From the NCBI RefSeq assembly GCF_001425235.1, contig NZ_LMEA01000011.1, positions 927,523-991,522 on the forward strand: 64,000 nucleotides of DNA, read 5' to 3'. This DNA comes from Devosia sp. Root413D1. Lineage in GTDB: Bacteria > Pseudomonadota > Alphaproteobacteria > Rhizobiales > Devosiaceae. Shown in pieces: positions 18,991 to 57,154 of the stretch. Position numbers and translations under genes: made by a program. The notes below the pieces were generated by a model. It did not search any database. It was not told the origin of the DNA and saw nothing but the letters and a program-made list of their open reading frames with translations. How positions within the stretch are numbered: position 1 is the first letter of the stretch; each line of letters opens with the position of its first letter.

Positions 18991-19015
18991 GGAACCCTCC
19001 CTGCCCCTGCTAGTT
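18991..19015 (+). promoter_or_regulatory. EcfG-type promoter
   Basis: GGAAC-N17-GTT with the -10 GTT 27 bp upstream of the aldo/keto reductase ATG. The spacing is the same as in most of the sites in this window. Confidence 0.6.
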
Positions 19016-19042
19016 CCCGAAAGGCACCAATGGAGATGCCTG

Positions 19043-19897
19043 ATGGACAAGTACGCACCCACCTCACCGCCGGCGATCGAGCTCAGCGAGTTCATCTCCA
19101 TTCCTCAGCTCGGGCTGGGCGTATGGCAGATCGAGAACGACAAGGTCGTCCCCACCGTGACCGCGGCGCTCGAGGCCGGCTATCGGCTGATCGACACCGC
19201 CCAGGGCTACGACAATGAGCAAGGGGTCGGCGAAGCCATCAAATCAAGCACAGTGGAGCGGTCCGAGATCTTCGTCACCAGCAAGCTGCGCACCAAGGCG
19301 ATGGGCCACGAAGGGGCATTGGCCGGGGTGCGGGAATCGCTTGCGGCGCTGCAGCTCGACTATCTCGACCTGATGCTCATCCACTGGCCCACTCCGGCGC
19401 ACGACAAATATGTCGAGACCTGGAAAGGTCTGATCGAGGCCAAGGAACAGGGGCTGGTCAAGGCCATCGGCGTTTCGAACTTCACCATCGAGCAGCTTGA
19501 GCGGATCATCGGCGAGACCGGTATCGTGCCGGCCGTCGACCAGGTCGAAACCCACCCGCACTTCCAGCAGAAGGGTCTGTTGCCTCATCTTGCCGCGCGC
19601 GGCATCCGGCATGAGGCGTACTCGCCGCTGGGCAGTGGGGAAGTGCTCGATGATCCGATCATTGGCGAAATTGCCGCGAGCCTGGGCAAATCGCCGGCGC
19701 AGGTCATTATTCGCTGGCACTTGCAGCGCGGCTCGATCGTCATCCCGAAATCGGAGACGCCCGAACGGATCCGCGAGAATTTCGACGTCTTCGGCTTCAC
19801 CCTGTCGGACGGAGAGATGGGGCGGATCGCCGGATTGGACGATCCGACAAACGGCCGCACCGGTAGCGACCCAGAGACCTTCAACGACCTCTACTGA
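19043..19897 (+). CDS. aldo/keto reductase
   Basis: A 284-residue NADPH-dependent oxidoreductase of the AKR superfamily. The catalytic tetrad is visible: Asp and Tyr in LIDTAQGYDNE, Lys in TSKLRTK and His in MLIHWPTP. The C-terminal PKSETPERIRENFDVF cofactor motif is intact. The ATG at 19043 follows GGAGATG. It has an EcfG-type promoter and is followed 101 bp later by treZ on the same strand, so it is probably a stress-induced detoxifying reductase; the substrate is unknown. Confidence 0.9.
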   Translation: MDKYAPTSPPAIELSEFISIPQLGLGVWQIENDKVVPTVTAALEAGYRLIDTAQGYDNEQGVGEAIKSSTVERSEIFVTSKLRTKAMGHEGALAGVRESLAALQLDYLDLMLIHWPTPAHDKYVETWKGLIEAKEQGLVKAIGVSNFTIEQLERIIGETGIVPAVDQVETHPHFQQKGLLPHLAARGIRHEAYSPLGSGEVLDDPIIGEIAASLGKSPAQVIIRWHLQRGSIVIPKSETPERIRENFDVFGFTLSDGEMGRIAGLDDPTNGRTGSDPETFNDLY

Positions 19898-19998
19898 ACG
19901 CTGCCTTGGGTCTCGCGCCGCGGAACGGTTGCACCTCACGCAAGTTCACCGAAGGCGCGGCCCTGCAACCATGCCGGGTCAGGCCCAGGGGACAACTG

Positions 19999-21813
19999 AT
20001 GACCATCGAACTCGAGCGCACCCGCAGTAACGACGACACTTCGGGCGCGCCGGCGTCCGGCCGCTTCGGACCAGCGGTCGAGGGGGACTGCACCTGGTTT
20101 CGGCTGTGGGCGCCGAACGTTTCGGCTGCCGAGGTGCTGGTCGAAGGTCGGGATCCAGTGACCATGACGCGCGGCCTCGATGGGTTCCTGCTGGCCTCGC
20201 TGGACCATTGCGGGCCGGGTGCCCGCTACAGGTTTCGCGTCGGCGATGTCACTTTTCCCGACCCAGCGTCCCGGCAACAGCAGGACGACGCCTCCGGTTG
20301 GAGCATCGTTCGCACTGCCCTGCCTCAGGCCGGACGTCGCAACCCGGTTCGGCCGTGGCACGAGGCGGTGATCTGCGAAGTGCATGTGGGCGCCGCGACG
20401 CCGGAAGGTACGTTCAGAGCGCTGACGGATCGGCTCGAGCACTTCCGCGATGCCGGCTATACCTGCCTCGAAATCATGCCTGTCAACGAGTTTCCCGGCG
20501 CTCGCAACTGGGGCTATGACGGCACGCTGATCTTTGCGCCTGAGCACAGCTACGGCACGCCCGAGGAGCTGAGGCAGCTGGTCGATCGCGCCCACCAGCT
20601 CGGGCTGCTGATGATCCTCGACGTGGTCTACAACCATTTCGGCGAGACCGACAATTTCATCCCCCACTACGCGCCGCAGTGGTTCCGGGACGACATCGAG
20701 ACGCCCTGGGGCCCGGCGATCGACTTCGATCAACCGATGGTTCGCCAGTTCTATTACGAGAACGCGGTGATGTGGCTGACGGAGTATGATTTCGACGGGT
20801 TGCGCTTTGATAGCGTGCACGAGATCAAGACCGAGAACCGCGAGCGCTTTCTCGGTGAGCTGGCCGCGGCGGCGCGGGCCAGCAAGCCCGATGCCGCGCT
20901 GATCGTCGAGAACGTGCGCAACAACTTCGAGCTGCTCGAACGCGACGATCACAACCGGCCCCAGCAATATTCGGCGCAGTGGAACGACGACATGCACCAC
21001 GTGCTGGCATACCTCGTCACCGGCGAGGGACCGAGAACCGGCTATGACGATCCGAACAAGGACCCATATGCCGACCTCGAAAAGGCGCTGGCCGACGGGT
21101 TCGTACACGACCCCAGCGAAGGCGACGGCAGCGACGGACGCACCAGGGGCGGCAAAGCTGCCAAGCTCCCGCCCGACAGTTTCATCACCTATGTGCAAAA
21201 CCACGACCAGCTGGGCAATCGCTCCGACGCCAAGCGCCTATCGGAGCGGATCAGCCCCGAGCAGCTGGATTTCGTGCATTTCGTCAAATTCCTCGCGCCG
21301 CAGATTCCGCTCTGCTTCATGGGCGACGAGGCCAATCTCAGCAGCGGCTTCCCGTTCTTCGTCGACCTCGATGCAGCAGCCGCGAAGGCCAAGAGCGACG
21401 AGCGCTACAAGCAGATGCGCGAGATGTTCAAGGATGATGTCGGAGCCGGCGGACTGCCTGAGCCCAACGATCCCAGGACGTTCAAGATGGCCAAGCTCTC
21501 TTGGCAGGACTACGAAACCATGCCTGAGCGACGCGCTGCCCTCGAGCGCTTCCGGACACTGGCGCGCTGGCGCCGCGACAGGCTCTGGCCGCTCGCCGCG
21601 ACGCCGTGCCTTGATGCCCAAACGGCGCGGCAAGGCAATTGCCTGGTTGTCAGTTGGGTGTTCGAAGCCGGTACGCTGTCGATGGCGCTGAACCCGACCG
21701 CCTGGCCGGCGGATATCGGCTGCGTTGTCACGGCGCCGCCGTTGTCGAGCGGGCGGTACGAGCAGCACGGCGAGGTCCTGCGGCTTGGCCCCTGGTCGGC
21801 AGTGGCCTGGTAA
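19999..21813 (+). CDS. treZ: malto-oligosyltrehalose trehalohydrolase
   Basis: A 604-residue GH13 enzyme releasing trehalose from maltooligosyl-trehalose. N-terminal CBM48/isoamylase-like domain (FRLWAPNVSAAEVLV), catalytic barrel with DVVYNHFGE, FDGLRFDSVHEI (nucleophile Asp), IVENVRNN (acid Glu) and FITYVQNHDQLGNR (transition-state Asp). The insert EFPGARNWGYDG is typical of TreZ. The partner synthase TreY is not in the window. Trehalose is a common osmotic and desiccation protectant, in line with the upstream stress promoter. Confidence 0.93.
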   Translation: MTIELERTRSNDDTSGAPASGRFGPAVEGDCTWFRLWAPNVSAAEVLVEGRDPVTMTRGLDGFLLASLDHCGPGARYRFRVGDVTFPDPASRQQQDDASGWSIVRTALPQAGRRNPVRPWHEAVICEVHVGAATPEGTFRALTDRLEHFRDAGYTCLEIMPVNEFPGARNWGYDGTLIFAPEHSYGTPEELRQLVDRAHQLGLLMILDVVYNHFGETDNFIPHYAPQWFRDDIETPWGPAIDFDQPMVRQFYYENAVMWLTEYDFDGLRFDSVHEIKTENRERFLGELAAAARASKPDAALIVENVRNNFELLERDDHNRPQQYSAQWNDDMHHVLAYLVTGEGPRTGYDDPNKDPYADLEKALADGFVHDPSEGDGSDGRTRGGKAAKLPPDSFITYVQNHDQLGNRSDAKRLSERISPEQLDFVHFVKFLAPQIPLCFMGDEANLSSGFPFFVDLDAAAAKAKSDERYKQMREMFKDDVGAGGLPEPNDPRTFKMAKLSWQDYETMPERRAALERFRTLARWRRDRLWPLAATPCLDAQTARQGNCLVVSWVFEAGTLSMALNPTAWPADIGCVVTAPPLSSGRYEQHGEVLRLGPWSAVAW

Positions 21814-21818
21814 GCGAA

Positions 21819-21838
21819 GGGGCGGCCAAAGCCGCCCC
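21819..21838. terminator. bidirectional terminator between treZ and SDR
   Basis: GGGGCGGC, loop CAAA, GCCGCCCC: a perfect 8-bp stem between two convergent genes. Confidence 0.75.
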
Positions 21839-21845
21839 ACCCGTC

Positions 21846-22706: not shown

Positions 22707-22743
22707 GGTTGCACCTCGTGGTTTGTGGGGAAGCCATATTCGA

Positions 22744-22837: not shown

Positions 22838-22862
22838 GGAACGGATGGCTCGCCGGCAAGTT
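22838..22862 (+). promoter_or_regulatory. EcfG-type promoter
   Basis: GGAAC-N17-GTT, ending 46 bp before the ATG of the GSP17M-like gene. Confidence 0.6.
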
Positions 22863-22908: not shown

Positions 22909-23526
22909 ATGAAAACAATCACAGGGCTTTTTGATTCACACGACCAGGCCGATCGCGCCGTGCGCTCGCTCAAGGATGCAGGCGTCAACGGCGAAGACAT
23001 CTCGATCGTCGCCAACAACGCCGATGGCAAATATGACACCGAGACGGGCGACGACGTTGCCGAAGGCGTCGGCGCCGGCGCGGGTGTTGGCGCCGTGGTC
23101 GGCGGCACGGGTGGCCTGCTCGCCGGGCTTGGCATGCTGGCCATTCCAGGTGTCGGCCCCGTGGTAGCGGGCGGCTGGCTGCTGGCGACGGCAATCGGCG
23201 CGGTGACTGGCGCTGCCGTGGGCGGCGCTGCCGGCGGCATCATCGGCGCACTGACTGACGCAGGTGTCGATGAGCGCGACGCGCATGTCTACGCCGAAGG
23301 CGTCCGCCGCGGCGGCATCCTGGTGACGGCGCGTGTCGAGGATAGTCGCGCCGACGCGGCGGCGGCCATCCTGCGCGATTCCAGTGTCGTCGACATTGCG
23401 GCGCGCCGTCGCGATTACGAGGCCGAGGGTTGGGAAGGCTTTGACGAGGCCTCGGAGCCCTACCCCGCCGACCAGATCCGCGACTACCGCGCCGGTTCCG
23501 TTGCGCCGCCGATCCTGCGCAGCTGA
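22909..23526 (+). CDS. GSP17M-like stress protein with glycine-zipper segment
   Basis: A 205-residue protein. Residues 1-40 (ITGLFDSHDQADRAVRSL) match the general stress protein 17M / YflT-like domain. Residues 52-115 form a Gly/Ala-rich hydrophobic region with repeated GxxxG (GAGAGVGAVVGGTGG, AVGGAAGGIIGAL) that could insert into membranes. The C-terminal part (HVYAEGVRRGGILVTARVED) is a second compact domain. The AAGGAGAA ribosome site supports the start. The role is unknown beyond stress association. Confidence 0.8.
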   Translation: MKTITGLFDSHDQADRAVRSLKDAGVNGEDISIVANNADGKYDTETGDDVAEGVGAGAGVGAVVGGTGGLLAGLGMLAIPGVGPVVAGGWLLATAIGAVTGAAVGGAAGGIIGALTDAGVDERDAHVYAEGVRRGGILVTARVEDSRADAAAAILRDSSVVDIAARRRDYEAEGWEGFDEASEPYPADQIRDYRAGSVAPPILRS

Positions 23527-27349: not shown

Positions 27350-27408
27350 GGTGGCAGCCAGAACGTGGCTGGAGCGATTTGGATGCGCAGCAGCCGTCTC
27401 GCGCCAGG

Positions 27409-27432
27409 GAACGACGCGGCGGGCGGGAAGTT
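27409..27432 (+). promoter_or_regulatory. EcfG-type promoter, short spacer
   Basis: GGAAC-N16-GTT. The -10 GTT overlaps the left arm of the inverted repeat at 27431-27457 and is only 25 bp from the ATG. Confidence 0.45.
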
Positions 27433-27457: not shown

Positions 27458-27667
27458 ATGCCGCATGACTCAACCCGCGATGGTTTGCCCACCGGCGAGG
27501 ACACATCTGCCACCCACGACGTGAGCGACCCTCACCCTGCGAACGAAGAACGCTACGATCGGCAGAAGCGCCCGGGTGGGGCGCCTCGCCCGGCCAAGGA
27601 TTTTGGCCCCAACGATGCCATCCATGATGGCAAACCAAGGCCGCGCCCGCGCAATGCCGCAGGCTGA
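27458..27667 (+). CDS. hypothetical small hydrophilic protein, 69 aa
   Basis: Begins MPHDSTRDGLPTGEDTSATHD and is rich in Pro, Asp, Arg and Lys throughout (RQKRPGGAPRPAKDF, KPRPRPRNAAG). No hydrophobic segment; it is likely disordered. Start fixed by the adjacent GGAGG. It is expressed from a candidate stress promoter. It resembles the many short hydrophilic proteins of desiccation or general stress responses, but no family is recognised. Confidence 0.6.
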   Translation: MPHDSTRDGLPTGEDTSATHDVSDPHPANEERYDRQKRPGGAPRPAKDFGPNDAIHDGKPRPRPRNAAG

Positions 27668-28203: not shown

Positions 28204-28229
28204 GGAACTGAAGGCGAAGGGGCGACGTT
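28204..28229 (+). promoter_or_regulatory. EcfG-type promoter
   Basis: GGAAC-N17-CGTT, a full match to both core elements, ending 33 bp before the ATG at 28263. It is preceded by an A/T-rich stretch. Confidence 0.7.
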
Positions 28230-28262: not shown

Positions 28263-28448
28263 ATGGCTGATCGCGAAACAATCGTCACCGGCGGCGGTGG
28301 CAGCGGCGGCATCATTGCCGGCATCCTGCTCGTCGCCCTCGTGGTGATCGTCGCCTATTTCGTCTTTTTCAACGGCAATGGCGGCTCCCGCACGGTCGAT
28401 GTCGACGTGCCGGCCGTGAAGGTCGATGTCGTGCCGGACGGACAGTAA
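28263..28448 (+). CDS. small single-pass membrane protein, 61 aa
   Basis: MADRETIVTGGGGSGG leads into one helix (IIAGILLVALVVIVAYFVFF) and a short outside tail TVDVDVPAVKVDVVPDG. The ribosome site is GAGGAG. It is 11 bp upstream of the GlsB/YeaQ gene and shares its stress promoter. Small proteins of this form are common in rhizobia; the role is unknown. Confidence 0.7.
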   Translation: MADRETIVTGGGGSGGIIAGILLVALVVIVAYFVFFNGNGGSRTVDVDVPAVKVDVVPDGQ

Positions 28449-28459: not shown

Positions 28460-28720
28460 ATGGAAGGCATTGGATGGGTAATGGCGATCATCATCGGCGC
28501 ACTCGCCGGTTGGATCGCTGAAAAAATGATGGGCTCCAACCAGGGCCTGCTCATGAACATCGTCATGGGTATTGTCGGCGCAGTTGTCGGCAACTTCATC
28601 CTGATGCTGGTGTTCGGCGCCACCATGGGTGGCATCGTCGGCCAGTTGATTGTCGCGGTTATCGGCGCCTGCCTGCTGATCGCGATCTGGCGGGCCATTC
28701 GCGGCCGCCGCGCCGCCTGA
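28460..28720 (+). CDS. GlsB/YeaQ/YmgE-family stress membrane protein
   Basis: An 86-residue protein with three hydrophobic helices: GWVMAIIIGALAGWIAEKMM, LMNIVMGIVGAVVGNFIL and IVGQLIVAVIGACLLIAIWRAI. The G-A-L-A-G-W-I-A-x-K-x-M and N-I-x-x-G-I-x-G-A-x-x-G pattern defines the transglycosylase-associated GlsB/YeaQ family. It is co-transcribed with the preceding small membrane gene. Family members are induced by envelope and stationary-phase stress. Confidence 0.9.
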   Translation: MEGIGWVMAIIIGALAGWIAEKMMGSNQGLLMNIVMGIVGAVVGNFILMLVFGATMGGIVGQLIVAVIGACLLIAIWRAIRGRRAA

Positions 28721-30722: not shown

Positions 30723-30932
30723 CTAGCCTTGCACCAGCTTGTGGGGCAGCAGGGCCGAGAGCGGTTTGGTCCCGTCGAGATAGCTTCGCAGCACTTTGCC
30801 GGCGGCGAGTGCTTCTGCATCGGCCGGCCCGAGTTCCCTCAATGCGCGCCGCGCCTCAGCCATCGACAGGCGATGGCGTCTGGCAAAATGCGGCACCAGC
30901 AGCCGTTGATCGAAGGTGAGGCCGCCCGACAT
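30723..30932 (-). CDS. hypothetical protein, 69 aa
   Basis: MSGGLTFDQRLLVPHFARRHRLSMAEARRALRELG, then AEALAAGKVLRSYLDGTKP. A basic helical protein with a possible DNA- or RNA-binding helix pair. Its ATG overlaps the stop of the receiver gene upstream by one base (TGATG), so the two are coupled and probably work together. Family not recognised. Confidence 0.6.
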   Translation of the reverse strand: MSGGLTFDQRLLVPHFARRHRLSMAEARRALRELGPADAEALAAGKVLRSYLDGTKPLSALLPHKLVQG

Positions 30933-31414
30933 CAATCAGCCTTCCCCGATGCCCGAGGCAGCGGCCCCGCTCGCATCGCGGTCTGCTGCAGCTTGGACTT
31001 GATCAGGTCTATTTCGTCCTGGCGGTTCGCCTCCCCCTCCTGCTCCGGCCAACGCTCCGGGGGAGCAGTCTCGGGGGTATCGAGCAGCGCTCCGACAGCA
31101 GCGGCGGTCAACGGCTTGCGCAGGAACGCCGCGCCCGGAAACAGCGCCGGGTCGGCTCGATCGCCCGATCGGATGATGAAGGCGAAACCTACACCTGCCG
31201 CCGATAGCAGCTCGGCGATCGGCGTTGCATCGGTACCGTCTCCCAGGTCCCGCTCGAGCAGTGCGAAATCCAATGCTTCGGGCCTGAGCTTTACCGCGTC
31301 CTCCAGGCCATGCGCGACTCCCGCGACCTGATGGCCGCATTGTTCGATGAGCGATGCTACCGCACCGGCCTCGACGCCATCGCGTTCCAGGAGGAACACC
31401 CTTTTGCTTGCCAT
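30932..31414 (-). CDS. single-domain receiver protein with C-terminal tail
   Basis: A 160-residue protein. Residues 5-120 form a receiver-like fold: KRVFLLERDGVEAGAVASLIEQCGHQV, phosphoacceptor region FALLERDLGDG, switch Ser/Thr region AFIIRSGDRAD and Lys in AFLRKPLTAA. The first acidic residues are partly kept (LERD). A 40-residue polar tail follows with EIDLIKSKLQQTAM. Under an exact EcfG-type promoter. Confidence 0.7.
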   Translation of the reverse strand: MASKRVFLLERDGVEAGAVASLIEQCGHQVAGVAHGLEDAVKLRPEALDFALLERDLGDGTDATPIAELLSAAGVGFAFIIRSGDRADPALFPGAAFLRKPLTAAAVGALLDTPETAPPERWPEQEGEANRQDEIDLIKSKLQQTAMRAGPLPRASGKAD

Positions 31415-31444: not shown

Positions 31445-31469
31445 AACTTGCTCGTTGCGCACCGGTTCC
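31445..31469 (-). promoter_or_regulatory. EcfG-type promoter
   Basis: Minus strand GGAAC-N17-GTT, -10 30 bp before the receiver ATG at 31414. A GCTCCG/CGGAGC repeat follows the -10. Confidence 0.6.
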
Positions 31470-32533: not shown

Positions 32534-33193
32534 TCAGCTTCCAGTCCTGTCGTGCGGGGCGGCGACCGGCTTGGATTCCGGCGAATAGCGAAAGCGGAGG
32601 AAGATCGAGAGAACGACGATCACCGCAGTCGAGAGGAACTCGGATTGCCAGTTCTGGAAGGATTCAAACCAGAGCTGTGCGCTGAACAGGTGTTCGATCA
32701 GCGTGGCGGGCGCTTGCCCGTGCACCGCTGCCTCCTCGTTTGCCGCGACCGCACTGCCCAACCAGTGCGCGACGAACGAGGCGAGGAACAGCGCCACAAG
32801 CACGATGCCCAGCGAGTAGGAATAGAGCCACATCCACAGCCCGCCCGCCCGGACCGGCCAAGGCGTTCGCTTGTCGCGCTGCTTGCTGGCCGGATCTTCA
32901 TCGACCTCCTCGTCACCGTGAGGGTCCTTCGATTCCGACGAGCCGCGCTGGAACAGAAATGCGGTGAGTACGACGTAGAACGACATCTGGAGAAACTCGC
33001 TCTCCCAGTTTTCGAACACCGCCGAGGCAAAGCTGCCGCTGAACAGGTACGACCAGAGGTCGGCTGTGGGAGCGCCGTGTTCAGCTAGATTGCTGTTCTC
33101 CACTTGCAGTCCCGCCAGCGCCATTCCCCCCAGCGACAGGGCGGTGAGCACCAGCAGAACAATGGTCAGTCCGTTATTTCGTAACCAGCTCAT
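32534..33193 (-). CDS. DUF6766-family membrane protein
   Basis: A 219-residue protein with four membrane helices in two pairs. Each pair is followed by a matching motif: FENWESEFLQMSFYVVLTAFLFQRGSSESKDP and FQNWQSEFLSTAVIVVLSIFLRFRYSPESKPV. This internal duplication and N-W-x-S-E-F signature define DUF6766. The linker holds DEEVDEDP. It is under an exact EcfG-type promoter. Function unknown; often annotated in desiccation- and radiation-tolerant bacteria. Confidence 0.8.
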   Translation of the reverse strand: MSWLRNNGLTIVLLVLTALSLGGMALAGLQVENSNLAEHGAPTADLWSYLFSGSFASAVFENWESEFLQMSFYVVLTAFLFQRGSSESKDPHGDEEVDEDPASKQRDKRTPWPVRAGGLWMWLYSYSLGIVLVALFLASFVAHWLGSAVAANEEAAVHGQAPATLIEHLFSAQLWFESFQNWQSEFLSTAVIVVLSIFLRFRYSPESKPVAAPHDRTGS

Positions 33194-33221: not shown

Positions 33222-33246
33222 AACTTGGTCAGGTGCTCGAGGTTCC
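33222..33246 (-). promoter_or_regulatory. EcfG-type promoter
   Basis: Minus strand GGAAC-N17-GTT, 28 bp upstream of the DUF6766 gene start. Confidence 0.6.
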
Positions 33247-34742: not shown

Positions 34743-35081
<339 letters not shown>

Positions 35082-35264
35082 TCAAGGGCGATCGACGCGC
35101 GTCAACCGGACGTGGCGGTACAGGGAACAGGTCGGGTTTTTCCGGTTTCCCCACCTGGCCAACGAAACGGCAGCCGAGCCCTTGCCCCGCCCGCTTTGCT
35201 CGCATCTCGCCGACGACGTGGTCTCGTCGTTGTGGCGCCAGTCGGGAAAGCCTACCTAAGGCAG

Positions 35265-35900
35265 ATGAAGCAGGACGCAGATGGCGCTGAGTTGGTCGAG
35301 CTATGGACGCTGCCCTTTGCTGCGAGGCTGGGCTCGTCGATACGATCCAAGGGCCTCTATCTCGAAATTCGCGCCCGTCTCCCGGTAGCGGCCAGGAAGT
35401 CGCTTTCGGTGAAGGCGGGCGAACTGGCGCTTCGCATGCCGCAAACCGCATCGAAGCAGTTTGCGGCGACATCGGCGCTTGTCTCCCGAGCCCTCGAGGG
35501 CATCGAGAGCCTGCCGGTGATCCCGCGTGAGATCGAGGATATCCTGGGCATTTCGACCACCGAGCGCCACCGCTGGCTGAAGGATGGCCGGTTGCCTAGC
35601 GCCGGCACCCGCAGCGTGAAACTGCGCGGCCGCGCGAGGAAAGTGACCTTCCACGTGTTCGACCCCCGGGTTGTCGAAGACATCCTCGACCGGGGATTGA
35701 TCGACACCTGGCGCGAGGACGACGCCGTGACCGCCGCCGAGAACCGGCGCAAGGCCGCCTGGAAGGCGAAGCTCACCAGGGCGCGAAAGACCGCCGGTGA
35801 GGCCGTGCCCCGCCACCCTGACGGCGAGCCCTCGGCTCACGACGACGAGGATCGCTTCAAGCTACGAGGCTGGGCTGAATTCGAACGCGACATGCTGTAG
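35265..35900 (+). CDS. putative HTH protein, 211 aa
   Basis: Residues 70-120 (LEGIESLPVIPREIEDILGISTTERHRWLKDGRLPSAG) look like a helix-turn-helix of the excisionase/MerR style, followed by a strand pair (KVTFHVFDPRVVEDILDRG) and a basic C-terminal helix (NRRKAAWKAKLTRARKTAG). The N-terminal 60 residues are unknown. The ATG at 35265 follows a weak AAGG. The open frame extends upstream to 35112 from a GTG, but that part is low-complexity. Confidence 0.6.
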   Translation: MKQDADGAELVELWTLPFAARLGSSIRSKGLYLEIRARLPVAARKSLSVKAGELALRMPQTASKQFAATSALVSRALEGIESLPVIPREIEDILGISTTERHRWLKDGRLPSAGTRSVKLRGRARKVTFHVFDPRVVEDILDRGLIDTWREDDAVTAAENRRKAAWKAKLTRARKTAGEAVPRHPDGEPSAHDDEDRFKLRGWAEFERDML

Positions 35901-35944: not shown

Positions 35945-36304
35945 TCAGCGCCCATTGATCGCCGTGAACAGTGCGGCGCTCATCTGCTCCAGCGTATAGG
36001 GCTTATCGATGATGGCGGAGCCGGGCGCGACATCGGCCTGCACGCCATAGCCGGTCGCATAGACGATCGGGATACCCAGATCCTGGAGACGCTTGGCGAC
36101 TGGCGTGCTCGGCAGGCCGCCGATATTCACGTCGAGCAAGGCCGCATCCATGCGACTGCCATCGAGCAGACCCAACGCCACATCGATGCGATGGGCGGGC
36201 CCCACGACCACGGCGCCAAGCTCCTCCAAAGCATCGACCACCTCCATGGCGAGGAGGTATTCGTCTTCAAGGACGAGGATGTGTTTGCCGGCGAGCGTCG
36301 TCAT
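35945..36304 (-). CDS. single-domain response regulator
   Basis: A 119-residue stand-alone receiver. Acid pair in HILVLEDEYLLA, phosphoacceptor Asp in AALLDVNIGG, and YATGYG where the FAT GUY subgroup has F-A-T-G-Y; Lys in IIDKPYT. FAT GUY regulators such as SdrG act in phosphorelays to PhyR. It overlaps the stop of the kinase gene by four bases (ATGA), so it is probably its direct partner. Confidence 0.88.
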   Translation of the reverse strand: MTTLAGKHILVLEDEYLLAMEVVDALEELGAVVVGPAHRIDVALGLLDGSRMDAALLDVNIGGLPSTPVAKRLQDLGIPIVYATGYGVQADVAPGSAIIDKPYTLEQMSAALFTAINGR

Positions 36305-37830: not shown

Positions 37831-37855
37831 AACGCGCTGTTGCTGAATAAGTTCC
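37831..37855 (-). promoter_or_regulatory. EcfG-type promoter
   Basis: Minus strand GGAAC-N16-CGTT, 30 bp before the kinase ATG. Full consensus. Confidence 0.7.
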
Positions 37856-37987: not shown

Positions 37988-38542
37988 ATGGATCGCGAGT
38001 GGTGGGTCGGCCGAGTGCTGCCGGGCTTTGTCGGAGCCCTGATTTTCTTCATTCTATTGCTGATCTGGAACAGCATTACGGGCGGGACGATCGTCAACGC
38101 CTTTGGCGGAGCCAGATCCTCCGACATCGAGGCCGTCCAGCTGCTTGCCGGGCCTGCTGGTCCGAAGGGGGATGTCGGCCCCGCCGGTCCAAAGGGTGAC
38201 ACCGGTGCGGCAGGCCCCGCCGGGCCCGTTGGCGAGACCGGGCCGGTTGGGCCGGCCGGGAGCACCGGGCCGGTTGGCCCCGCTGGCCCCAAGGGTGATT
38301 CCGGACCGATCGGTCCGAAAGGCAATGCCGGCCCGACGGGTCCGGCCGGTCCGAAGGGAGACGCGGGCCCGATTGGACCCAAGGGCGATGTTGGTCCGGT
38401 CGGACCTGCCGGCCCGAAGGGCGACCCGGGCGTGGCTGGTCCGCGGGGTAATGCCGGCCCCGCCGGTCCGAAGGGGGACACGGGGCCAATCGGTCCTGCG
38501 GGCCCCATGGGGGAGATCGTGCCGGCCACTCCATCGCAATAG
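37988..38542 (+). CDS. membrane-anchored collagen-like protein
   Basis: A 184-residue protein. N-terminal membrane helix GFVGALIFFILLLIWNSI, a short stem (IVNAFGGARSSDIEAVQLLA), then about 41 uninterrupted Gly-X-Y triplets, rich in GPA, GPK, GDx and GPI, ending PMGEIVPATPSQ. The triplet block would form a collagen triple helix outside the membrane. KGD/KGN salt-bridge triplets, used by bacterial collagens instead of hydroxyproline, recur about every 18 residues. GGGAGG ribosome site. Confidence 0.85.
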   Translation: MDREWWVGRVLPGFVGALIFFILLLIWNSITGGTIVNAFGGARSSDIEAVQLLAGPAGPKGDVGPAGPKGDTGAAGPAGPVGETGPVGPAGSTGPVGPAGPKGDSGPIGPKGNAGPTGPAGPKGDAGPIGPKGDVGPVGPAGPKGDPGVAGPRGNAGPAGPKGDTGPIGPAGPMGEIVPATPSQ

Positions 38543-39713: not shown

Positions 39714-39941
39714 TCAGGCGGAAGGCGCTTCGTCGCCATCCGGGCGCCACACCAGCTCCTGCTTCATGTCCGCATCCTGCACGATCACCTGCACATACGG
39801 CTCGTTGGTGGCGCGTGCAGCTTCGATGGCCGCGTCGATCGCCGCCTGGCGCGAAGTAAAGTGCGCGAAGATGCTTCCACGGAATGTGTACTGCCAGATG
39901 TCATCGCGGTGGTTGACGATGAAGTGGTGCTGATTGGCCAT
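39714..39941 (-). CDS. DUF2188-family protein
   Basis: A 75-residue protein: MANQHHFIVNHRDDIWQYTFRGSIFAHFTSRQAAIDAAIEAARATNEPYVQVIVQDADMK. The pattern of an opening strand, ripped hydrophobic strand and an A-I-x-x-A-x-E-x-A helix fits DUF2188-like proteins. A one-mismatch EcfG-type site is 24 bp upstream. Confidence 0.65.
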   Translation of the reverse strand: MANQHHFIVNHRDDIWQYTFRGSIFAHFTSRQAAIDAAIEAARATNEPYVQVIVQDADMKQELVWRPDGDEAPSA

Positions 39942-39965: not shown

Positions 39966-39990
39966 AACGTCGGGGCGGCAACCTTGTTGC
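39966..39990 (-). promoter_or_regulatory. EcfG-type promoter, one mismatch
   Basis: Minus strand GCAAC-N16-CGTT, the same -35 variant as at 32483-32507. Confidence 0.4.
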
Positions 39991-46301: not shown

Positions 46302-46326
46302 GGAACGAAGCTCAAACGGCAAGGTT
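46302..46326 (+). promoter_or_regulatory. EcfG-type promoter
   Basis: GGAAC-N17-GTT, 37 bp before the ATG at 46364. Confidence 0.6.
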
Positions 46327-46363: not shown

Positions 46364-46552
46364 ATGGCCAACCAGCAGAATTCAAGCGGCAACAAGTCAT
46401 CGGGCAACGGCAACTCGTCCGGTAACGGAAACAAGTCTGGCAGCTCCCAGTCTAAAGGCTCCGGCAGCGAGAAATCGTCGTCCGGCACGCAGGGCGGCAC
46501 CCGGGAGCAGCATGCCGAAGCCGGGCGCCAGAGCCACAAGAACGACAAGTAA
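46364..46552 (+). CDS. Ser/Gly/Asn-rich disordered protein, 62 aa
   Basis: MANQQNSSGNKSSGNGNSSG and repeats of SGNGN/KSGSSQSKGSG, ending GGTREQHAEAGRQSHKND. The ending resembles the con-10/KGG-type stress-induced motif (G-x-x-x-x-x-A-x-x-G-x-x-S/A-H). Low complexity, highly hydrophilic; hydrophilin-like. Under an exact EcfG-type promoter with a terminator after it. Confidence 0.65.
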   Translation: MANQQNSSGNKSSGNGNSSGNGNKSGSSQSKGSGSEKSSSGTQGGTREQHAEAGRQSHKNDK

Positions 46553-46933: not shown

Positions 46934-46958
46934 GGAACAACCGTGCGCATAAGGCGTT
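46934..46958 (+). promoter_or_regulatory. EcfG-type promoter
   Basis: GGAAC-N16-CGTT, full consensus, 26 bp before the ku GTG start. Confidence 0.7.
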
Positions 46959-46984: not shown

Positions 46985-47809
46985 GTGGCAGTTCGACCAT
47001 ACTGGAAAGGCTACCTGAAGCTGTCGTTGGTGACGTGCGCAGTGACGCTCTCGCCGGCGACCACAGAGGGCAACCGCGTTCGCTTCCACACTCTCAACCG
47101 CACCACCGGTGACCGGATCTACACCCGGTACGTCGACGCCGAGACCGGGCGGACGGTGGATGACGATCACCAGGTGAAGGCGTACGAGAAGGCCGAAGAC
47201 GAGTTCGTCATCCTTGAAGATGAGGAACTGGACGCCGTGAAACTCGACAGCGTCCGCACCATCGACATCGACGAATTTGTCGAGGCCGATACCGTGGAGT
47301 GGACCTATTTCGACACGCCCTATTTCGTGGTGCCGGCCGACGAGGTCGGTGAAGAGGCTTTTTCCGTCATTCGCGAGGCGATGGCCGAACAGAACGTGGT
47401 GGGTATCTCTCGCCTCGTCCTCGGCAATCGCGAGCGCGCAGTGATGCTGCAGCCCTGGGATACCGGCATATTGCTCTGGACGCTCCGCTTCGGCGACGAA
47501 GTGCGGGATGAAGACGAGTATTTCGAGAAGGTCGACGAGGCAAAACCCGACAAGGAAATGCTCAGCATGGTAGAGAAGATCATCGAGGAGCGCACAGCCG
47601 CCTGGAACAAGGACATGGTCAAAGACCCCGTGCAGGCCAAGCTCAAAGAGATCATCAAGGCCAAGGAGTCGCCTAAGCGGAAATCGAAGCCTGCAAAGGC
47701 CGAGGCCGAGGCCGAGCCCGAAGCTCCCACCAATGTCATCAATCTCATGGCCGCTTTGAAGAAGAGCCTGGAGAACAGGCCCGGTCAGCAAGCCAAAGGC
47801 GGGCGCTAA
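46985..47809 (+). CDS. ku: Ku protein (NHEJ), copy 1
   Basis: A 274-residue bacterial Ku homodimer subunit that rings broken DNA ends for end joining. GTG start after GGAGGTGATC gives MAVRPYWKGYLKLSLVTCAVTLSPAT. Core features: RVRFHTLNRTTGDRI, EDEFVILEDEELDAVKLD, FVEADTVEWTYFDTPYFVVP and ALVDEAKPDKEMLSM-type end; the tail is Lys/Ala/Glu-rich (KPAKAEAEAEPEAP). No LigD gene is in the window. Confidence 0.95.
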   Translation: MAVRPYWKGYLKLSLVTCAVTLSPATTEGNRVRFHTLNRTTGDRIYTRYVDAETGRTVDDDHQVKAYEKAEDEFVILEDEELDAVKLDSVRTIDIDEFVEADTVEWTYFDTPYFVVPADEVGEEAFSVIREAMAEQNVVGISRLVLGNRERAVMLQPWDTGILLWTLRFGDEVRDEDEYFEKVDEAKPDKEMLSMVEKIIEERTAAWNKDMVKDPVQAKLKEIIKAKESPKRKSKPAKAEAEAEPEAPTNVINLMAALKKSLENRPGQQAKGGR

Positions 47810-48675
47810 CCCGCCTTTCGCTGTGCGGGAGCAGTTTTCTTAGCTGGCGCAGCCTTGTTCGTTTTCGACTTGCTGGCAGAACGACGCGACGCCGACTCGC
47901 CCTTGGCGCCGGCGCTGAGCCGTAGCGCCTCAAGCAGGTCGTTCTTCTTCGTTGGCTTGGGAGGACGAAGTGGCACAATCTTCTTGCCGTTGATCTTGGC
48001 CTGCACCAGATCGGCCAGAGCCTCCTCGTAGCGATCGTCGAACTTGCTCGGGTCGAACTCGCCGGCCTTCGTCTTCAGAATATGCTTGGCCAGATCGAGC
48101 ATTTCCGGCTCGATCTTGCTCTTCTTGATCCCTTTGAAGGCGTCGGACGCGGAACGGACCTCGTAGTCGAAGTTCAGCGTAGTTGCGATCAACCCGTCGT
48201 GGTGTGCACGGATCAGAACCGGCCTCAGCCGCCGGAACAACACGGCGTGCGCGATTGCAGCCGCCTTTCGCTCTCGCAACGCCTCGCGGATCAGGACGAA
48301 GGTTTCGTTCCCAATGTCGGTGGTCGGCAGCAGGTAATAGGGTTTGTCAAAGTAGGTGGGCTCGATTTTGTTGCAGGCAATGAATTGGTCGACCGTGAGA
48401 GCCTTGTCACTGTTCGGCACCGCGGCTGCGATCTCCTCGGGCTCGAGCACCACGTATTGGCCATCACCGGTCTCGTAGCCCTTCACCTGGTCCTCGTACT
48501 CGACCGGCTTGTCCGTTTTCTCATCGACATAGAGCCGCTTGAGGCGGTTTCCGGTGCTCCGATTGACCATGTGGGGCGAGATGCGCTCCGACTGCGACGC
48601 GGCTGCGTACATCGACACCGGGCACACGATCTCCGCGATCTTGATGGCACCCTTCCAGATTGCTCGAGCTGCCAA
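47806..48675 (-). CDS. ku: Ku protein (NHEJ), copy 2
   Basis: A 289-residue second Ku. TTG start at 48675 chosen because GGAGG lies 9 bases upstream, giving (M)AARAIWKGAIKIAEIVCPVSMYAA. Conserved blocks RISPHMVNRSTGNRLKR, QYVVLEPEEIAAAVP, IEPTYFDKPYYLLP and KIEPEMLDLAKHIL; Lys/Ser/Ala-rich tail (SKSKTNKAAPAKKTAPAQ). Its stop overlaps the convergent stop of copy 1. It has its own exact EcfG-type promoter. Confidence 0.95.
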   Translation of the reverse strand: MAARAIWKGAIKIAEIVCPVSMYAAASQSERISPHMVNRSTGNRLKRLYVDEKTDKPVEYEDQVKGYETGDGQYVVLEPEEIAAAVPNSDKALTVDQFIACNKIEPTYFDKPYYLLPTTDIGNETFVLIREALRERKAAAIAHAVLFRRLRPVLIRAHHDGLIATTLNFDYEVRSASDAFKGIKKSKIEPEMLDLAKHILKTKAGEFDPSKFDDRYEEALADLVQAKINGKKIVPLRPPKPTKKNDLLEALRLSAGAKGESASRRSASKSKTNKAAPAKKTAPAQRKAG

Positions 48676-48702
48676 TTTGCGCGACCTCCGTTGAGACCTC
48701 AC

Positions 48703-48727
48703 AACGGTTGGAGAGCGAGCCTGTTCC
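48703..48727 (-). promoter_or_regulatory. EcfG-type promoter
   Basis: Minus strand GGAAC-N16-CGTT, 27 bp before the ku copy 2 TTG. Full consensus. The gap 48728-49006 has no gene; it is GC-rich with GGAGCCGG-type repeats. Confidence 0.7.
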
Positions 48728-49006
48728 CTCTCCGGAGCTGGGAGGAGCCGGCGGTCTGGCGCACACCCTTACCCCGCCCTTCTCTATCCCTGCCGACCGA
48801 TGGACAGCTGGGGCTATAGGCGCGGGAGGGATCATTGAGGGTGCCGGCGGCGCCGGCGGCTTTGACTGTGTAAGCCGGACCCGGCTGGGAGGGACAGCGG
48901 GGCCCGGCGGCACACAGGCCCGAGGCCAGGGAGGGGCAACCTCAGGCCAGATTTCCAACCTCAGGAATGCGATTTGGTTCCGACGCTGTCGGCCCTCGAC
49001 AACGAC

Positions 49007-49031
49007 GGAACCTGCTGACCCTACGGAAGTT
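49007..49031 (+). promoter_or_regulatory. EcfG-type promoter
   Basis: GGAAC-N17-GTT; -10 overlaps the left arm of the inverted repeat at 49030-49055 and is 24 bp from the ATG. Confidence 0.55.
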
Positions 49032-49055: not shown

Positions 49056-49370
49056 ATGTACGAAGAAAACTCGTCACCCTCGCGCGTCATGAGTCCGCTG
49101 ATCACTCGGCGGAAACTGGCAAGGGAGAGGGTTGCACCTTACCTGCCTGACCTGAAGCGCTGGCGGAGCAAGTCGCTGCAGTTGCGCGCCATGCACAACT
49201 CTCGCCATCAAACGGCTGACGCACTGGCTGCCGGCGAAATGCAGTTGGCCGCTTTGCGAAGAGAGATGGAAATGACCCGTCAGGCGTTCATTCTTGAGAT
49301 GGATGACATCCGTGAAATGCCTGCTGTCGTCGACTATCTTGCGGCCCTCGACAACCTAATACAGGGCTGA
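49056..49370 (+). CDS. hypothetical protein, 104 aa (paralogue at 27928)
   Basis: MYEENSSPSRVMSPLITRRKLARERVAPYLP, then a long helix region and MTRQAFILEMDDIREMPAVVDYLAALDNLIQG. The ends align to the 83-residue protein at 27928-28179. Helical, charged. Expressed from an EcfG-type promoter. Function unknown. Confidence 0.65.
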   Translation: MYEENSSPSRVMSPLITRRKLARERVAPYLPDLKRWRSKSLQLRAMHNSRHQTADALAAGEMQLAALRREMEMTRQAFILEMDDIREMPAVVDYLAALDNLIQG

Positions 49371-49930: not shown

Positions 49931-50149
49931 TCAGCTTCTCAAGGGCCAGTGCCCGGTCAACAGGGCATAGATCACCCCGCCCGCCAGGGTTGCGCCTATA
50001 GCCACAGCGCCAATTTCCGCCCACCGGGGCAGCCCCTTCTTGAACAGTAGCGGTGCATAAATGGCGAGAGCCAGCAGTAGTGTCGCGACAGCGACATGGA
50101 CCAGCAACTGATAGGCAGCGACCACTCCCACCTCCCCATTCCGCGTCAT
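49931..50149 (-). CDS. two-helix membrane protein, 72 aa
   Basis: MTRNGEVGVVAAYQLLVHVAVATLLLALAIYAP, then LPRWAEIGAVAIGATLAGGVIYALLTGHWP: two membrane helices. The EcfG-type -10 lies 2 bp before this ATG, so transcription would start inside the first codons; an in-frame GTG at 50125 after GGGGAGG may be the true start, giving 64 residues. Convergent with DUF6894. Confidence 0.55.
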   Translation of the reverse strand: MTRNGEVGVVAAYQLLVHVAVATLLLALAIYAPLLFKKGLPRWAEIGAVAIGATLAGGVIYALLTGHWPLRS

Positions 50150-50150
50150 A

Positions 50151-50175
50151 AACCGCGCGCTTGTGCGGCGGTTCC
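50151..50175 (-). promoter_or_regulatory. EcfG-type promoter
   Basis: Minus strand GGAAC-N17-GTT. Its place immediately before the ATG at 50149 suggests the start should be moved to the GTG at 50125. Confidence 0.5.
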
Positions 50176-51266: not shown

Positions 51267-51464
51267 TCAGTTATCCTCAATGCTGTGGAGTTCTCGCAGG
51301 CGCACCTTGAGCGGCTCGGGCAGATCGAGCTTGGCAATCAGTTCCATCGCTACTTGCTGCTGCGACGGTGGTTGAGTTTCCGATTGGGCCTTGGCCCACG
51401 CGAGGGCGCCGCCGAGCGTAAAGCGCACGCTGGGGGCTGGTGGCTTGTGAGGAAATTTCGGCAT
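51267..51464 (-). CDS. hypothetical protein, 65 aa
   Basis: MPKFPHKPPAPSVRFTLGGALAWAKAQSETQPPSQQQVAMELIAKLDLPEPLKVRLRELHSIED. N-terminal proline-rich part, then helices. First gene of a two-gene unit under an exact EcfG-type promoter. Family not recognised. Confidence 0.6.
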   Translation of the reverse strand: MPKFPHKPPAPSVRFTLGGALAWAKAQSETQPPSQQQVAMELIAKLDLPEPLKVRLRELHSIEDN

Positions 51465-51494: not shown

Positions 51495-51519
51495 AACCTG
51501 TCCAGGCCCCCTCGGTTCC
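51495..51519 (-). promoter_or_regulatory. EcfG-type promoter
   Basis: Minus strand GGAAC-N17-GTT, 30 bp before the ATG at 51464. Confidence 0.6.
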
Positions 51520-53011: not shown

Positions 53012-53036
53012 GGAACTGCCAGCTTGCTTCGAAGTT
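53012..53036 (+). promoter_or_regulatory. EcfG-type promoter
   Basis: GGAAC-N17-GTT, 46 bp before the SH3-protein ATG at 53083. Confidence 0.6.
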
Positions 53037-53082: not shown

Positions 53083-53718
53083 ATGAAACTTCTTCCACTC
53101 TTCGGCTCGGCCCTCCTCATCGGGCTGCTATCGACCGGCGCCATAGCGGCCGAGGCCGTCAGTGGCGCCAATGTCCGTTCGGGGCCCGGAGCTTCGTTTG
53201 GCGTCGTCGACACGCTGGCGGCGGGCGAAAGCGTCACGGTGACCGAGTGCGCGGCGAATGGCTGGTGCCGGATCGACCATTCAGGCCCGGATGGCTGGGT
53301 CTCGGCCAAGCTGCTCGCCGACAACGGCAACGCCGACGACTACTACAATGCAGCCGATGGCGGTGTAGAGGTTGCCAGAAACTTCGACGATGACGACGGA
53401 TATCCGCGACTCATCGGCCGCGCGCCCGACGTCAACGTGCGGTTCGGGTTTGGCTTTGGCAACGGCCTGTTTGGCTTCCGCGACGGTTTTATGATGGGCC
53501 GCCCCGGCCGCGATCGTGGTGACGTAGTCTGCCTTGTCACTTTCTTCAGCCGCGACGACGTGGCTGCCGGCCGGGATGCCGATGTGCAGCGCGCCCAGAT
53601 CCTGTCACGCCGCGTTGCCGAGCGAAACGACGGCCCGAACGACCGCCGGGCCATCTTCGAGTACGGCTCGGAGCGCGAGACGATCCGAACCTGCCGCTAT
53701 CTCGACCGCCTGAACTAA
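53083..53718 (+). CDS. secreted SH3 protein with conserved C-terminal domain, paralogue 2
   Basis: A 211-residue paralogue of 29743-30309. Signal peptide MKLLPLFGSALLIGLLSTGAIA, SH3_3 domain (VSGANVRSGPGASFGVVDTLAAGESVTV, GPDGWVSAKLL), variable middle, then VCLVTFFSRDDVAAGRDADVQRAQIL, PNDRRAIFEYGSERETIRTCRYLDRLN. A GTG directly precedes the ATG. It sits under an exact EcfG-type promoter. Periplasmic by prediction. Confidence 0.82.
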   Translation: MKLLPLFGSALLIGLLSTGAIAAEAVSGANVRSGPGASFGVVDTLAAGESVTVTECAANGWCRIDHSGPDGWVSAKLLADNGNADDYYNAADGGVEVARNFDDDDGYPRLIGRAPDVNVRFGFGFGNGLFGFRDGFMMGRPGRDRGDVVCLVTFFSRDDVAAGRDADVQRAQILSRRVAERNDGPNDRRAIFEYGSERETIRTCRYLDRLN

Positions 53719-53784
53719 CTGCAATGGTTGGCGCCGCTAGCGGGCGCTATCCCTAAAACTCCCGGGACCCCTTCCGGGAGCCAA

Positions 53785-53826
53785 GATCCGGCGGGCATTG
53801 CTGCATGTCAGGATGCACGCCGGGTC
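53785..53826 (+). ncRNA. structured RNA-like element, copy 2
   Basis: GATCCGGCG pairs with CGCCGGGTC; inner TGCAT pairs with ATGCA around GTCAGG. Preceded by hairpin CTCCCGG/CCGGGAG. It ends 27 bp before the ATG at 53854, so it may be a cis-acting leader. Confidence 0.45.
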
Positions 53827-53853
53827 GCTCCATTCCATCAGTGAGGCACCTCC

Positions 53854-54123: not shown

Positions 54124-54369
54124 GGCTCCAATCGAAGAGTTTTCGCCGCGCAGGGAACCGACGCTTGCCCACGGCATTATCTGCTTATCCGCACCACGCG
54201 GACGATGAGCCCATCCCCCTGGATTCATCATGCCACGGCGATACGCCCCTATCGTTGTGCACCAAAGGGATCTCGGCCCGCAAAGGTCGGGGTCCCTTTC
54301 ATTGGTGGGCAACCAAAGCCCTCGCCGTAAGTTCCTACCGACCGACATTGTTGTCGGCGGGCGGGCTGG

Positions 54370-55950: not shown

Positions 55951-55981
55951 ACCGCGCTGGTATGCGGCCGACAACATGCGC

Positions 55982-56119
55982 CTAACCCTTGGGCCGGGCC
56001 GCCGGCGGCCAGTCGGTCGGTCGAGCCTTGGCAGGCTTGCTGAGATCGCTGATGTCGGGCGAGGCTTGCCCTTCGGGTTTCGCAGCGGGTTTGGGCGAGC
56101 GCTTGGGAAGCTTTGCCAC
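55982..56119 (-). CDS. small Lys/Pro-rich protein, 45 aa
   Basis: GTG start at 56119 (GAGG 7 bp upstream): (M)AKLPKRSPKPAAKPEGQASPDISDLSKPAKARPTDWPPAARPKG. Highly basic and proline-rich; disordered. Placed 26 bp after an exact EcfG-type promoter, which supports both promoter and start. Function unknown. Confidence 0.6.
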   Translation of the reverse strand: MAKLPKRSPKPAAKPEGQASPDISDLSKPAKARPTDWPPAARPKG

Positions 56120-56144
56120 GGGTGATCCTCTGAGGTGCGAAGGT

Positions 56145-56169
56145 AACCCACCTGTGCGAGGCAAGTTCC
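56145..56169 (-). promoter_or_regulatory. EcfG-type promoter
   Basis: Minus strand GGAAC-N17-GTT, upstream of the 45-residue protein gene. Confidence 0.6.
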
Positions 56170-56258
56170 GACGACATGTCTTTTCTTAATGCGCCGGGAC
56201 GCCGATGGCCCTAGGGTCCATTGACCGGTCGAGCCGGTGCCCTCAGGGCACCACTAGT

Positions 56259-56334
56259 CTTGCTGCAACCGGGCGTCCTGGCGAAGCGCATCGAGCCTGC
56301 CGATCCACCACCGGGTGGATGGGTCCTCCTGCGT
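56259..56334 (+). promoter_or_regulatory. conserved leader before receiver copy B
   Basis: Matches about 51927-52000. Both end just before the receiver ATG. The sequence is not part of an obvious shared protein frame. Confidence 0.5.
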
Positions 56335-56347
56335 ATGGCGCGCATAC

Positions 56348-56731
56348 ATGACACACCAATTACCCGGCCTGACGGCCATGGTCGTCGAGACCAACTATCT
56401 CATCGCCTCGGTCATCGAGGCGCCGCTGCTTGGTGCGGGCTACCGGGTGACCATTGCCACCGATATCGACGAGGCGTTCGCGCTTCTGGCGGAGCAGCGG
56501 ATTCACCTGGCGGTGATCGATTTCCGCCTGCAGCACGCCGAGCCGGAGGGCCTGGTGGCAAGGCTCAGGCAAGAGGGCATCCCCTTCGTCTTCTGTACCG
56601 CCGCCAGCGTCGAGGAGGTGTGCGAGCACTTTCCCGATGCCAGGGTCATGCCCAAACCCTTCAGCGACCAGGACCTCCTCGCCGCCGTGGCGGGGCTGGT
56701 TCCCGCAACGAGCGCCTACCAGGCCGACTGA
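56348..56731 (+). CDS. single-domain receiver, module copy B
   Basis: A 127-residue receiver: MTHQLPGLTAMVVETNYLIASVIEAPLL, Asp in LAVIDFRLQHAEPEG, GIPFVFCTAASVEEV and Lys in VMPKPFSD. The aligned copy at 52013 differs mostly at surface positions. The first acid is Glu in VVETN and the second acid is absent, so metal binding may be altered. Followed 29 bp later by the small helical gene. Confidence 0.8.
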   Translation: MTHQLPGLTAMVVETNYLIASVIEAPLLGAGYRVTIATDIDEAFALLAEQRIHLAVIDFRLQHAEPEGLVARLRQEGIPFVFCTAASVEEVCEHFPDARVMPKPFSDQDLLAAVAGLVPATSAYQAD

Positions 56732-56760
56732 CTTCAAGGCCTCTCGACGGAGAACCATCC

Positions 56761-57126
56761 ATGCCGGCTACCGACACAATGCAGCACCGGAACGCCCAGA
56801 CCAGCGTGCTGGAGAGAAGGCGCGCCGATGGCACGCTCAAACCGTTTATCGGGGACCTGCAGCGCTGGAACGGCAAGGCGGCGCGGCTCCGCGGCCTCGC
56901 CGAGTCATTCTATAGCACGCAGGAAGATCGGGACCTCGCGCGGCTCGAGGCCGGCGCCCTGCTCGCCGAGATCCGTCGCCGGCACAGCGAATTCCGCGCG
57001 GCGATCAAGGGCGAGCCCGAGCATAGCCGTCTGCTCGACGTCGACGCCGCCTTTCGGAGGATGATCGACCAGCTCGAGGCAACCGCGAGAAAGGGTCCCG
57101 CAGTGGGGCAACGCTCAGCGACCTGA
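56761..57126 (+). CDS. small helical protein, module copy B
   Basis: A 121-residue family member: KPFIGDLQRWNGKAARLRGLAESFYSTQEDRDLARLEAGALLAEIRRRHSEFRAAIKGEPEHSRLLDVDAAFRRMIDQLEATAR. Ribosome site GGAG. Ends AVGQRSAT without the ATWGVHQQDEQN tail. Partner of receiver copy B by adjacency. Confidence 0.8.
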   Translation: MPATDTMQHRNAQTSVLERRRADGTLKPFIGDLQRWNGKAARLRGLAESFYSTQEDRDLARLEAGALLAEIRRRHSEFRAAIKGEPEHSRLLDVDAAFRRMIDQLEATARKGPAVGQRSAT

Positions 57127-57129
57127 GGC

Positions 57130-57154
57130 GGAACGAACCCCCGCAACCGACGTT
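57130..57154 (+). promoter_or_regulatory. EcfG-type promoter
   Basis: GGAAC-N16-CGTT, full consensus, directly after the stop of the previous gene. The -10 runs into an imperfect repeat TTGGACC/GGTTCAA. Confidence 0.65.

Follow-up and report, generated by a model that had tools for sequence, protein, structure and literature searches.

Why should one stretch of a bacterial genome carry candidate stress promoters in front of one small gene after another, and how did this arrangement come about? The question is raised by a window of 64,000 nucleotides (C11:927523-991522) from Devosia sp. Root413D1, whose genome comprises 5.85 Mb on 14 contigs. Throughout, the window means this whole stretch, C7 and C10 are other contigs of the same genome, L-numbers denote individual loci taken from genomes, and G001 to G017 label the genomes of relatives that were compared. 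The first-pass annotation had described a cluster of EcfG/RpoE2-type general stress promoters in this DNA. On the basis of sequence comparisons, the sites are very probably EcfG general stress promoters, and the block that contains them an accessory island of about 50 kb carrying promoters of its own. That the promoters are real and of a known type may be held with high confidence. New beyond the first-pass annotation is the setting of the site cluster in a variable island that splits an exopolysaccharide locus.

Both strands of the window together hold 26 matches to GGAAC-N16-18-GTT, 22 of which have the form N17-GTT or N17-CGTT; these 22 exact sites combine a GGAAC box, a spacer within the 17-20 bp range and a GTT box. 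All 22 fall outside called genes, meaning genes that score above 3 in the gene caller, and 19 precede a plausible start, which lies 24-52 bp after the GTT for 18 of them and 113 bp after it for site 57130. A C before the GTT, as in the Rhizobium etli motif GGAAC-N16-CGTT (PMC3892343; this report and the two others cited below were available in part), is present in 6 of the 22. The 17 GGAAC-N16-18-GTT sites listed in the first-pass annotation are all present on the strands given (27409 is really 27408), and the five credited with a full CGTT were borne out. A sixth CGTT site at 58483-58507 (minus strand), before a DUF6894 gene, and the site at 19922, before a TreZ-like gene, are two good sites missing from that list. 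The full set is as follows, with a variant site last.

18991-19015, plus strand: predicted EcfG-type promoter, 27 bp before the aldo/keto reductase gene 19043-19897
19922-19946, plus strand: predicted EcfG-type promoter, 52 bp before the TreZ-like gene 19999-21813
22838-22862, plus strand: predicted EcfG-type promoter, 46 bp before the YflT-domain gene 22909-23526; distance identical in G003
27408-27432, plus strand: predicted EcfG-type promoter, 25 bp before a 69-residue open reading frame (ORF), 27458-27667, with a strong ribosome site; likewise in G003
28204-28229, plus strand: predicted EcfG-type promoter (N17-CGTT), before 28263-28448 and the Transgly_assoc gene 28460-28720; likewise in G003
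31445-31469, minus strand: predicted EcfG-type promoter, 30 bp before ORF 30932-31414
33222-33246, minus strand: predicted EcfG-type promoter, 28 bp before the DUF6766 gene 32534-33193
35055-35079, plus strand: predicted EcfG-type promoter, before ORF 35112-35900, whose start is uncertain (the caller favours 35409)
37831-37855, minus strand: predicted EcfG-type promoter (CGTT), 30 bp before the HWE kinase gene; the orthologs in G017 and G001 have the site too
46302-46326, plus strand: predicted EcfG-type promoter, 37 bp before the 62-residue gene 46364-46552; the G017 homolog has the site too
46934-46958, plus strand: predicted EcfG-type promoter (CGTT), 26 bp before the Ku 1 gene (GTG at 46985)
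48703-48727, minus strand: predicted EcfG-type promoter (CGTT), 27 bp before the Ku 2 gene
49007-49031, plus strand: predicted EcfG-type promoter, 24 bp before the 104-residue ORF 49056-49370; kept in G003, the C7 element and G011
50151-50175, minus strand: predicted EcfG-type promoter, 25 bp before ORF 49931-50125
51495-51519, minus strand: predicted EcfG-type promoter, 30 bp before the 65-residue ORF 51267-51464; kept in the C7 element
53012-53036, plus strand: predicted EcfG-type promoter, 46 bp before the SH3-domain gene 53083-53718; likewise in G003
56145-56169, minus strand: predicted EcfG-type promoter, 25 bp before the 45-residue ORF 55982-56119; kept in G003
57130-57154, plus strand: predicted EcfG-type promoter (CGTT), 113 bp before the small gene 57268-57414; kept in G003
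58483-58507, minus strand: predicted EcfG-type promoter (CGTT), 41 bp before the DUF6894 gene 58187-58441; kept in G003 and G014
18993-19017, minus strand: exact site overlapping 18991-19015 on the opposite strand; no convincing gene downstream
48957-48981, minus strand: exact site; no convincing gene downstream
54311-54335, minus strand: exact site; no convincing gene downstream
39966-39990, minus strand: variant GCAAC-N16-CGTT, 24 bp before the DUF2188 gene 39714-39941

The variant also stands 23 bp before the DUF2188 ortholog in G014 and is possibly a working form of the EcfG box. Over the whole window (22.4 kb non-coding and 41.6 kb coding), sites with one mismatch number 17 in non-coding and 10 in coding DNA; of these, the DUF2188 variant alone is drawn on as evidence here. 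As a separate observation, some sites, such as 18991-19017, read GGAAC-N17-GTTCC and are exact sites on both strands, so that they could fire both ways. Such palindromes number 27 at N17 and 0-6 at other spacings; no enrichment is claimed, since the near self-complementarity of the motif makes about a tenth of sites palindromic by chance.

Whether the sites are tied to gene starts depends on how genes are called. The caller used is a lower-order model trained on 464 kb; an earlier caller, which called antisense ORFs and missed small genes, was dropped. To its 51 block genes, 20 ORFs were added by hand, some of them chosen for an upstream site, giving 71. Between 18.9 and 64 kb of the window, all 21 occurrences of GGAAC-N17-GTT fall in the 19.2 kb of non-coding DNA, with none in the 25.9 kb of coding DNA; the first 18.9 kb has none at all. 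In 18 other 20-kb regions of the genome (360 kb), the motif has 5 matches in coding DNA and none in the 59.5 kb of non-coding DNA. An equal motif density inside coding sequence or elsewhere, which had been named in advance as the result that would tell against promoters, is contradicted by these ratios of 21:0 in the block and 0:5 in the controls. When 172,175 spaced dyads (a 5-mer, N14-20 and a 3-mer) are counted in the non-coding part of 18.9-64 kb, GGAAC-N17-GTT is the commonest. Of the genes found by the caller, 14 of 51 in the block, but 1 of 353 in the control regions, are preceded by an exact site no more than 150 bp away. With the hand-added ORFs the share is 21 of 71, a count that includes the doubtful ORF 48521-48913, which overlaps Ku 2 and contains site 48703.

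Conservation in homologs provides a second line of evidence. Block genes were compared with loci chosen by DNA or protein similarity rather than by motif, together with the element on C7 described below; matches that covered less than half the query, started after residue 40 or had less than 100 bp upstream were discarded. At 60% identity or more, an exact site lies upstream in 23 of 29 homologs of genes with a site of their own (17 query genes), whereas genes that lack a site (42 query genes) have 82 homologs, 2 of them with an exact site. The counts are 10 of 10 against 1 of 38 at 80% identity or more, and 26 of 44 against 9 of 118 at 40%. When the hand-added ORFs and the C7 element are excluded, the contrast at 60% stands at 16 of 21 against 1 of 63. 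Fisher tests on such counts assume that bases and homologs are independent, though they are not, and the resulting p-values are indicative only. The spacers themselves diverge, with 5-10 of 17 bases in agreement in four window/C7 pairs, which were picked because both members have a site.

Could the matches nonetheless be products of base composition or of repeats? Across the genome GGAAC-N17-GTT occurs 198 times and its reversed control 141 times, an excess of 57, so chance accounts for many of the matches outside the clusters. The early estimate of about six chance matches in the window was also right, as the reversed pattern with N16-18 yields 6. In the 45.1 kb from 18.9 to 64 kb, however, the reversed-pattern expectation is about 1.1 against the 21 sites observed, all of them outside called genes, conserved at similar distances from starts and with divergent spacers. 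A chance origin of the entire set has next to no probability and is refuted; individual sites may nevertheless be accidental.

The identity of the sigma factor is suggested by the genome itself. NepR (C11:751399-751503), EcfG (C11:750813-751364) and PhyR (L010:16734-17528) are encoded next to one another about 0.18 Mb from the window, and seven GGAAC-N16/17-CGTT sites surround this locus. Under stress, phosphorylated PhyR draws NepR off EcfG. In Sphingomonas melonis Fr1 the EcfG motif is given as GGAAC-N17-20-GTT, for which the C is not required and which is overrepresented within 100 bp of starts; Ku, TreZ, CRP-like, PRC-barrel, catalase and exopolysaccharide genes are listed there among the top EcfG-dependent genes (PMC6599016). 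Since a PhyR-NepR-EcfG locus is present and the motif equals the published one, general stress promoters of the EcfG type are the best reading of the sites, and the assignment made in the first-pass annotation is strongly supported by position, homolog conservation, the published motif and the completeness of that locus. The predicted promoters of the window are of the type known from the EcfG/RpoE2 regulons of S. melonis Fr1, R. etli and Sinorhizobium meliloti, and the window shares Ku and TreZ with the Fr1 table.

Several observations pull in the other direction. At 60% identity or more, 6 of the 29 homologs of own-site genes have no exact site; three exact sites (18993, 48957 and 54311, all minus strand) have no convincing gene downstream; and 39 of the 71 block genes belong to transcription units without an exact site. 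Another concerns the sigma factor. Whereas all 5 N17-GTT sites at the EcfG locus have a C before the GTT, only 5 of 21 in the window do; AAGTT is read in 8 of the 21, and none of the 21 has a T before the GTT. The two site sets may differ, and this is the main point against their being read equally by the same sigma factor. Another sigma factor could instead be the main reader, with EcfG acting mostly on the CGTT subset; a candidate is the second EcfG-like protein encoded at C10:181726-182244 (42% identical to EcfG), and several EcfG copies are common in alphaproteobacteria (PMC3892343). This is distinctly unlikely, however, as the Sphingomonas motif allows GGAAC-N17-20-GTT without the C (PMC6599016), and in the available part of the R. 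etli report the EcfG2-dependent genes yielded no motif of their own (PMC3892343). The AAGTT sites, taken by themselves, could form a promoter subclass or reflect the preference of a second sigma factor.

The first-pass annotation had made two further claims from the cluster, that it is one of the densest runs of such promoters and that most unknown genes in it are general stress genes. For the first, the window was set beside 80 loci from Rhizobium, Mesorhizobium, Shinella and Sinorhizobium (L030-L109), chosen because they hold a relative of a short-chain dehydrogenase/reductase (SDR) gene of the window; the SDR gene is a common one, and the search gave no close relative of the window. Over 1.57 Mb, these loci contain 338 motif sites against 68 for the reversed control, and the densest, from Mesorhizobium, has 14 sites in 21 kb, compared with 13 in the best 20 kb of the window. 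Clustering of EcfG-type sites is common to these neighbourhoods and the window and, at least near the SDR gene, extends more widely in the order; density alone is therefore not exceptional, and the run is dense but matched elsewhere. For the second claim, exact sites head 20 of 51 transcription units, amounting to 32 of the 71 genes with hand-added ORFs included. This is short of a majority, to which one-mismatch sites may add some. The earlier interpretation survives for the promoter type and only in part for the density and the genes.

As to position, the similarity of the surrounding DNA to relatives breaks off and resumes at two points:

about 17990 to about 68240 (L013:4240), past the window end, no strand: stress-gene island, bounded where DNA similarity to G014, G002 and G010 breaks off and resumes

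A wecG-like gene ends at 17931 and a flippase gene starts at 68236 (L013), leaving the flanks 50.25 kb apart. The same gap measures 0.3 kb in G014, 0.1 kb in G002 and about 0.4 kb in G010; protein matches of the two genes lie 75 bp apart in G012, and in G011 the gap is 5.4 kb and holds three block genes. G003 and G007, where the two genes are on different contigs, were excluded from this comparison. Genomes thus differ in having or lacking the block at a single point whose flanks are conserved, as expected of an island. G003, the closest relative by these proteins, has a reduced and partly reordered version on contig C401 between other genes, and G014 has a stress-gene cluster at C1:556000-580000, at another point of the same exopolysaccharide locus (flanks judged by eye). 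The exopolysaccharide locus may be a place where such clusters have landed more than once.

The overlapping clusters in G003 and at 556-580 kb in G014 would also suit a different history, in which the genes are old in the genus and the block is ancestral, having been lost from the exopolysaccharide locus of other species rather than inserted here. Loss is unlikely: with a wecG-flippase gap below 0.5 kb in G002, G010, G012 and G014, three block genes in the gap of G011, and the G003 and G014 clusters lying elsewhere in a different order, it needs several separate losses and moves. Insertion of an island is preferred, and as far as comparison of the genomes can tell, its position and variability are well supported, the mechanism of transfer less so.

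The same genome has a second, partly paralogous island.

C7:19304-63324, no strand: 44-kb element, bounded by 49-bp direct repeats (48/49) of the end of a transfer RNA (tRNA) gene, tRNA-Glu, and with an integrase match

The tRNA-Glu gene lies at 63277-63351 and a phage-integrase match at 20218-20688, at the left edge. Flanked on either side by repeats of the tRNA 3' end and carrying an integrase match, the C7 element is built like known tRNA-integrated islands with a tyrosine recombinase. Its cargo differs from theirs, the recognised part including relatives of at least 12 stress-block genes of the window, in a different order, and 14 GGAAC-N17-GTT sites, a count undivided between coding and non-coding DNA, as the caller performs poorly on the atypical DNA of C7. 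Also encoded are an ATP-dependent ligase, a DnaE-type polymerase and a pair of Ku proteins 93% identical to the window pair. Among the matches listed, the window (21 sites), L013 (4), the ecfG locus (5) and the C7 element (14) together account for 44 sites, and most of the genome-wide motif excess may lie in these four places. The available parts of the reports on known EcfG regulons describe no concentration in islands, whereas here these 44 listed sites fall in two islands, the stretch adjoining the window and the sigma factor locus.

The Ku pair extends the comparison to plasmids.

46985-47809, plus strand: Ku protein 1, GTG start, end-to-end with Ku 2
47806-48675, minus strand: Ku protein 2, TTG start, 4-bp overlap with Ku 1

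The two genes are convergent, each with its own site on the outward side, 26-27 bp before the start, and the C7 element, G002 and G004 retain both sites. Among the plasmids searched, Devosia and Pelagibacterium provide the closest Ku matches, and on the megaplasmids of Devosia neptuniae, Devosia sp. A8/3-2 and Pelagibacterium sp. H642 the Ku sites are present in 6 of 6 cases. Both Devosia plasmids also encode relatives of the DUF72 and DUF892 proteins, and the DUF892 one has a site.

Against a mobile, promoter-bearing island stand several findings. The related cluster of G014 has just 4 exact sites in 40 kb, neither of the Mesorhizobium pMLb Ku genes (54-55% identity) has an exact site, and five plasmid stretches together hold 25 sites against 17 for the reversed control and are not site-rich overall. 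Unlike tRNA-integrated islands, the window island has no tRNA gene within the window (direct repeats at its ends were not searched), and contig C11 gave no match to the phage-integrase family PF00589, the only recombinase family searched. Since the block has no phage-integrase match, its mobility is deduced from patchy distribution only.

Taken together, the favoured account of an EcfG-controlled island would run as follows. Under stress, phosphorylated PhyR would remove NepR, and EcfG would then transcribe the protective genes of the block, among them those for trehalose synthesis, the two Ku end-joining proteins, and small membrane proteins and proteins of unknown function with exact sites, together with neighbours such as the Hsp20 and ferritin-like genes. 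The island would most likely have been inserted between the wecG-like and flippase genes and assembled from single genes or small modules, many with an EcfG promoter of their own. As such modules bring their own promoter, incoming genes would come under host stress control at once. We infer that EcfG binds the sites, that stress induces the genes and that the block was transferred horizontally.

A broader and more tentative proposal, for which the chances are a little short of even, is that part of the Devosiaceae stress regulon is transferable, with islands, tRNA-integrated elements and megaplasmids carrying genes pre-wired with an EcfG promoter, and that the regulon grows by acquiring such ready-to-run modules rather than by promoter evolution after arrival. 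The plasmid counts given above lower its odds. A literature search, judged on titles and the openings of abstracts, found no paper on island-borne EcfG promoters. General stress regulons of alphaproteobacteria differ much between species, and if the proposal is true, stress genes travelling with a class-wide promoter would explain these differences.

The genes of the block are diverse. Enzymes comprise an aldo/keto reductase, the TreZ-like protein (best NCBIfam match TIGR02402 at 503.7 bits, below the cut-off of 538.8), two SDRs and an exonuclease-phosphatase, and DNA end joining is represented by the two Ku proteins. Recognised domain families include YflT, DUF2934 (two), SH3 (three), DUF6766, DUF72, DUF6894 (two) and DUF3618, alongside Hsp20, two iron-permease-like proteins, a CRP-like protein, HlyIII, a ferritin-like DUF892 protein and many small proteins without a match. 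The Hsp20 and ferritin-like genes are neighbours with no exact site of their own here. Ten own-site genes or ORFs of the window have no Pfam match, and the four of them compared with NCBIfam gave no match there either; an exact upstream site offers a means of singling out direct stress genes from among small proteins whose function is unknown. At and past the window end lie two more own-site genes (63779-64426 in window numbering and L013:3251-3745) and, past the end, a catalase-like gene, named by eye, without a site.

Signalling proteins are represented by a pair with a conserved site.

36301-37800, minus strand: GAF-PAS-HWE histidine kinase; orthologs 75% (G017) and 67% (G001) identical
35945-36304, minus strand: single receiver-domain protein, paired with the HWE kinase

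Two S. meliloti operons encoding response regulator-kinase pairs depend on RpoE2 (PMC3616915), and the pair at 35945-37800 resembles these pairs. It may feed back on PhyR. Close by, at 37988-38542 and inside the stress block, is a gene for a collagen-like repeat protein that is conserved in G003.

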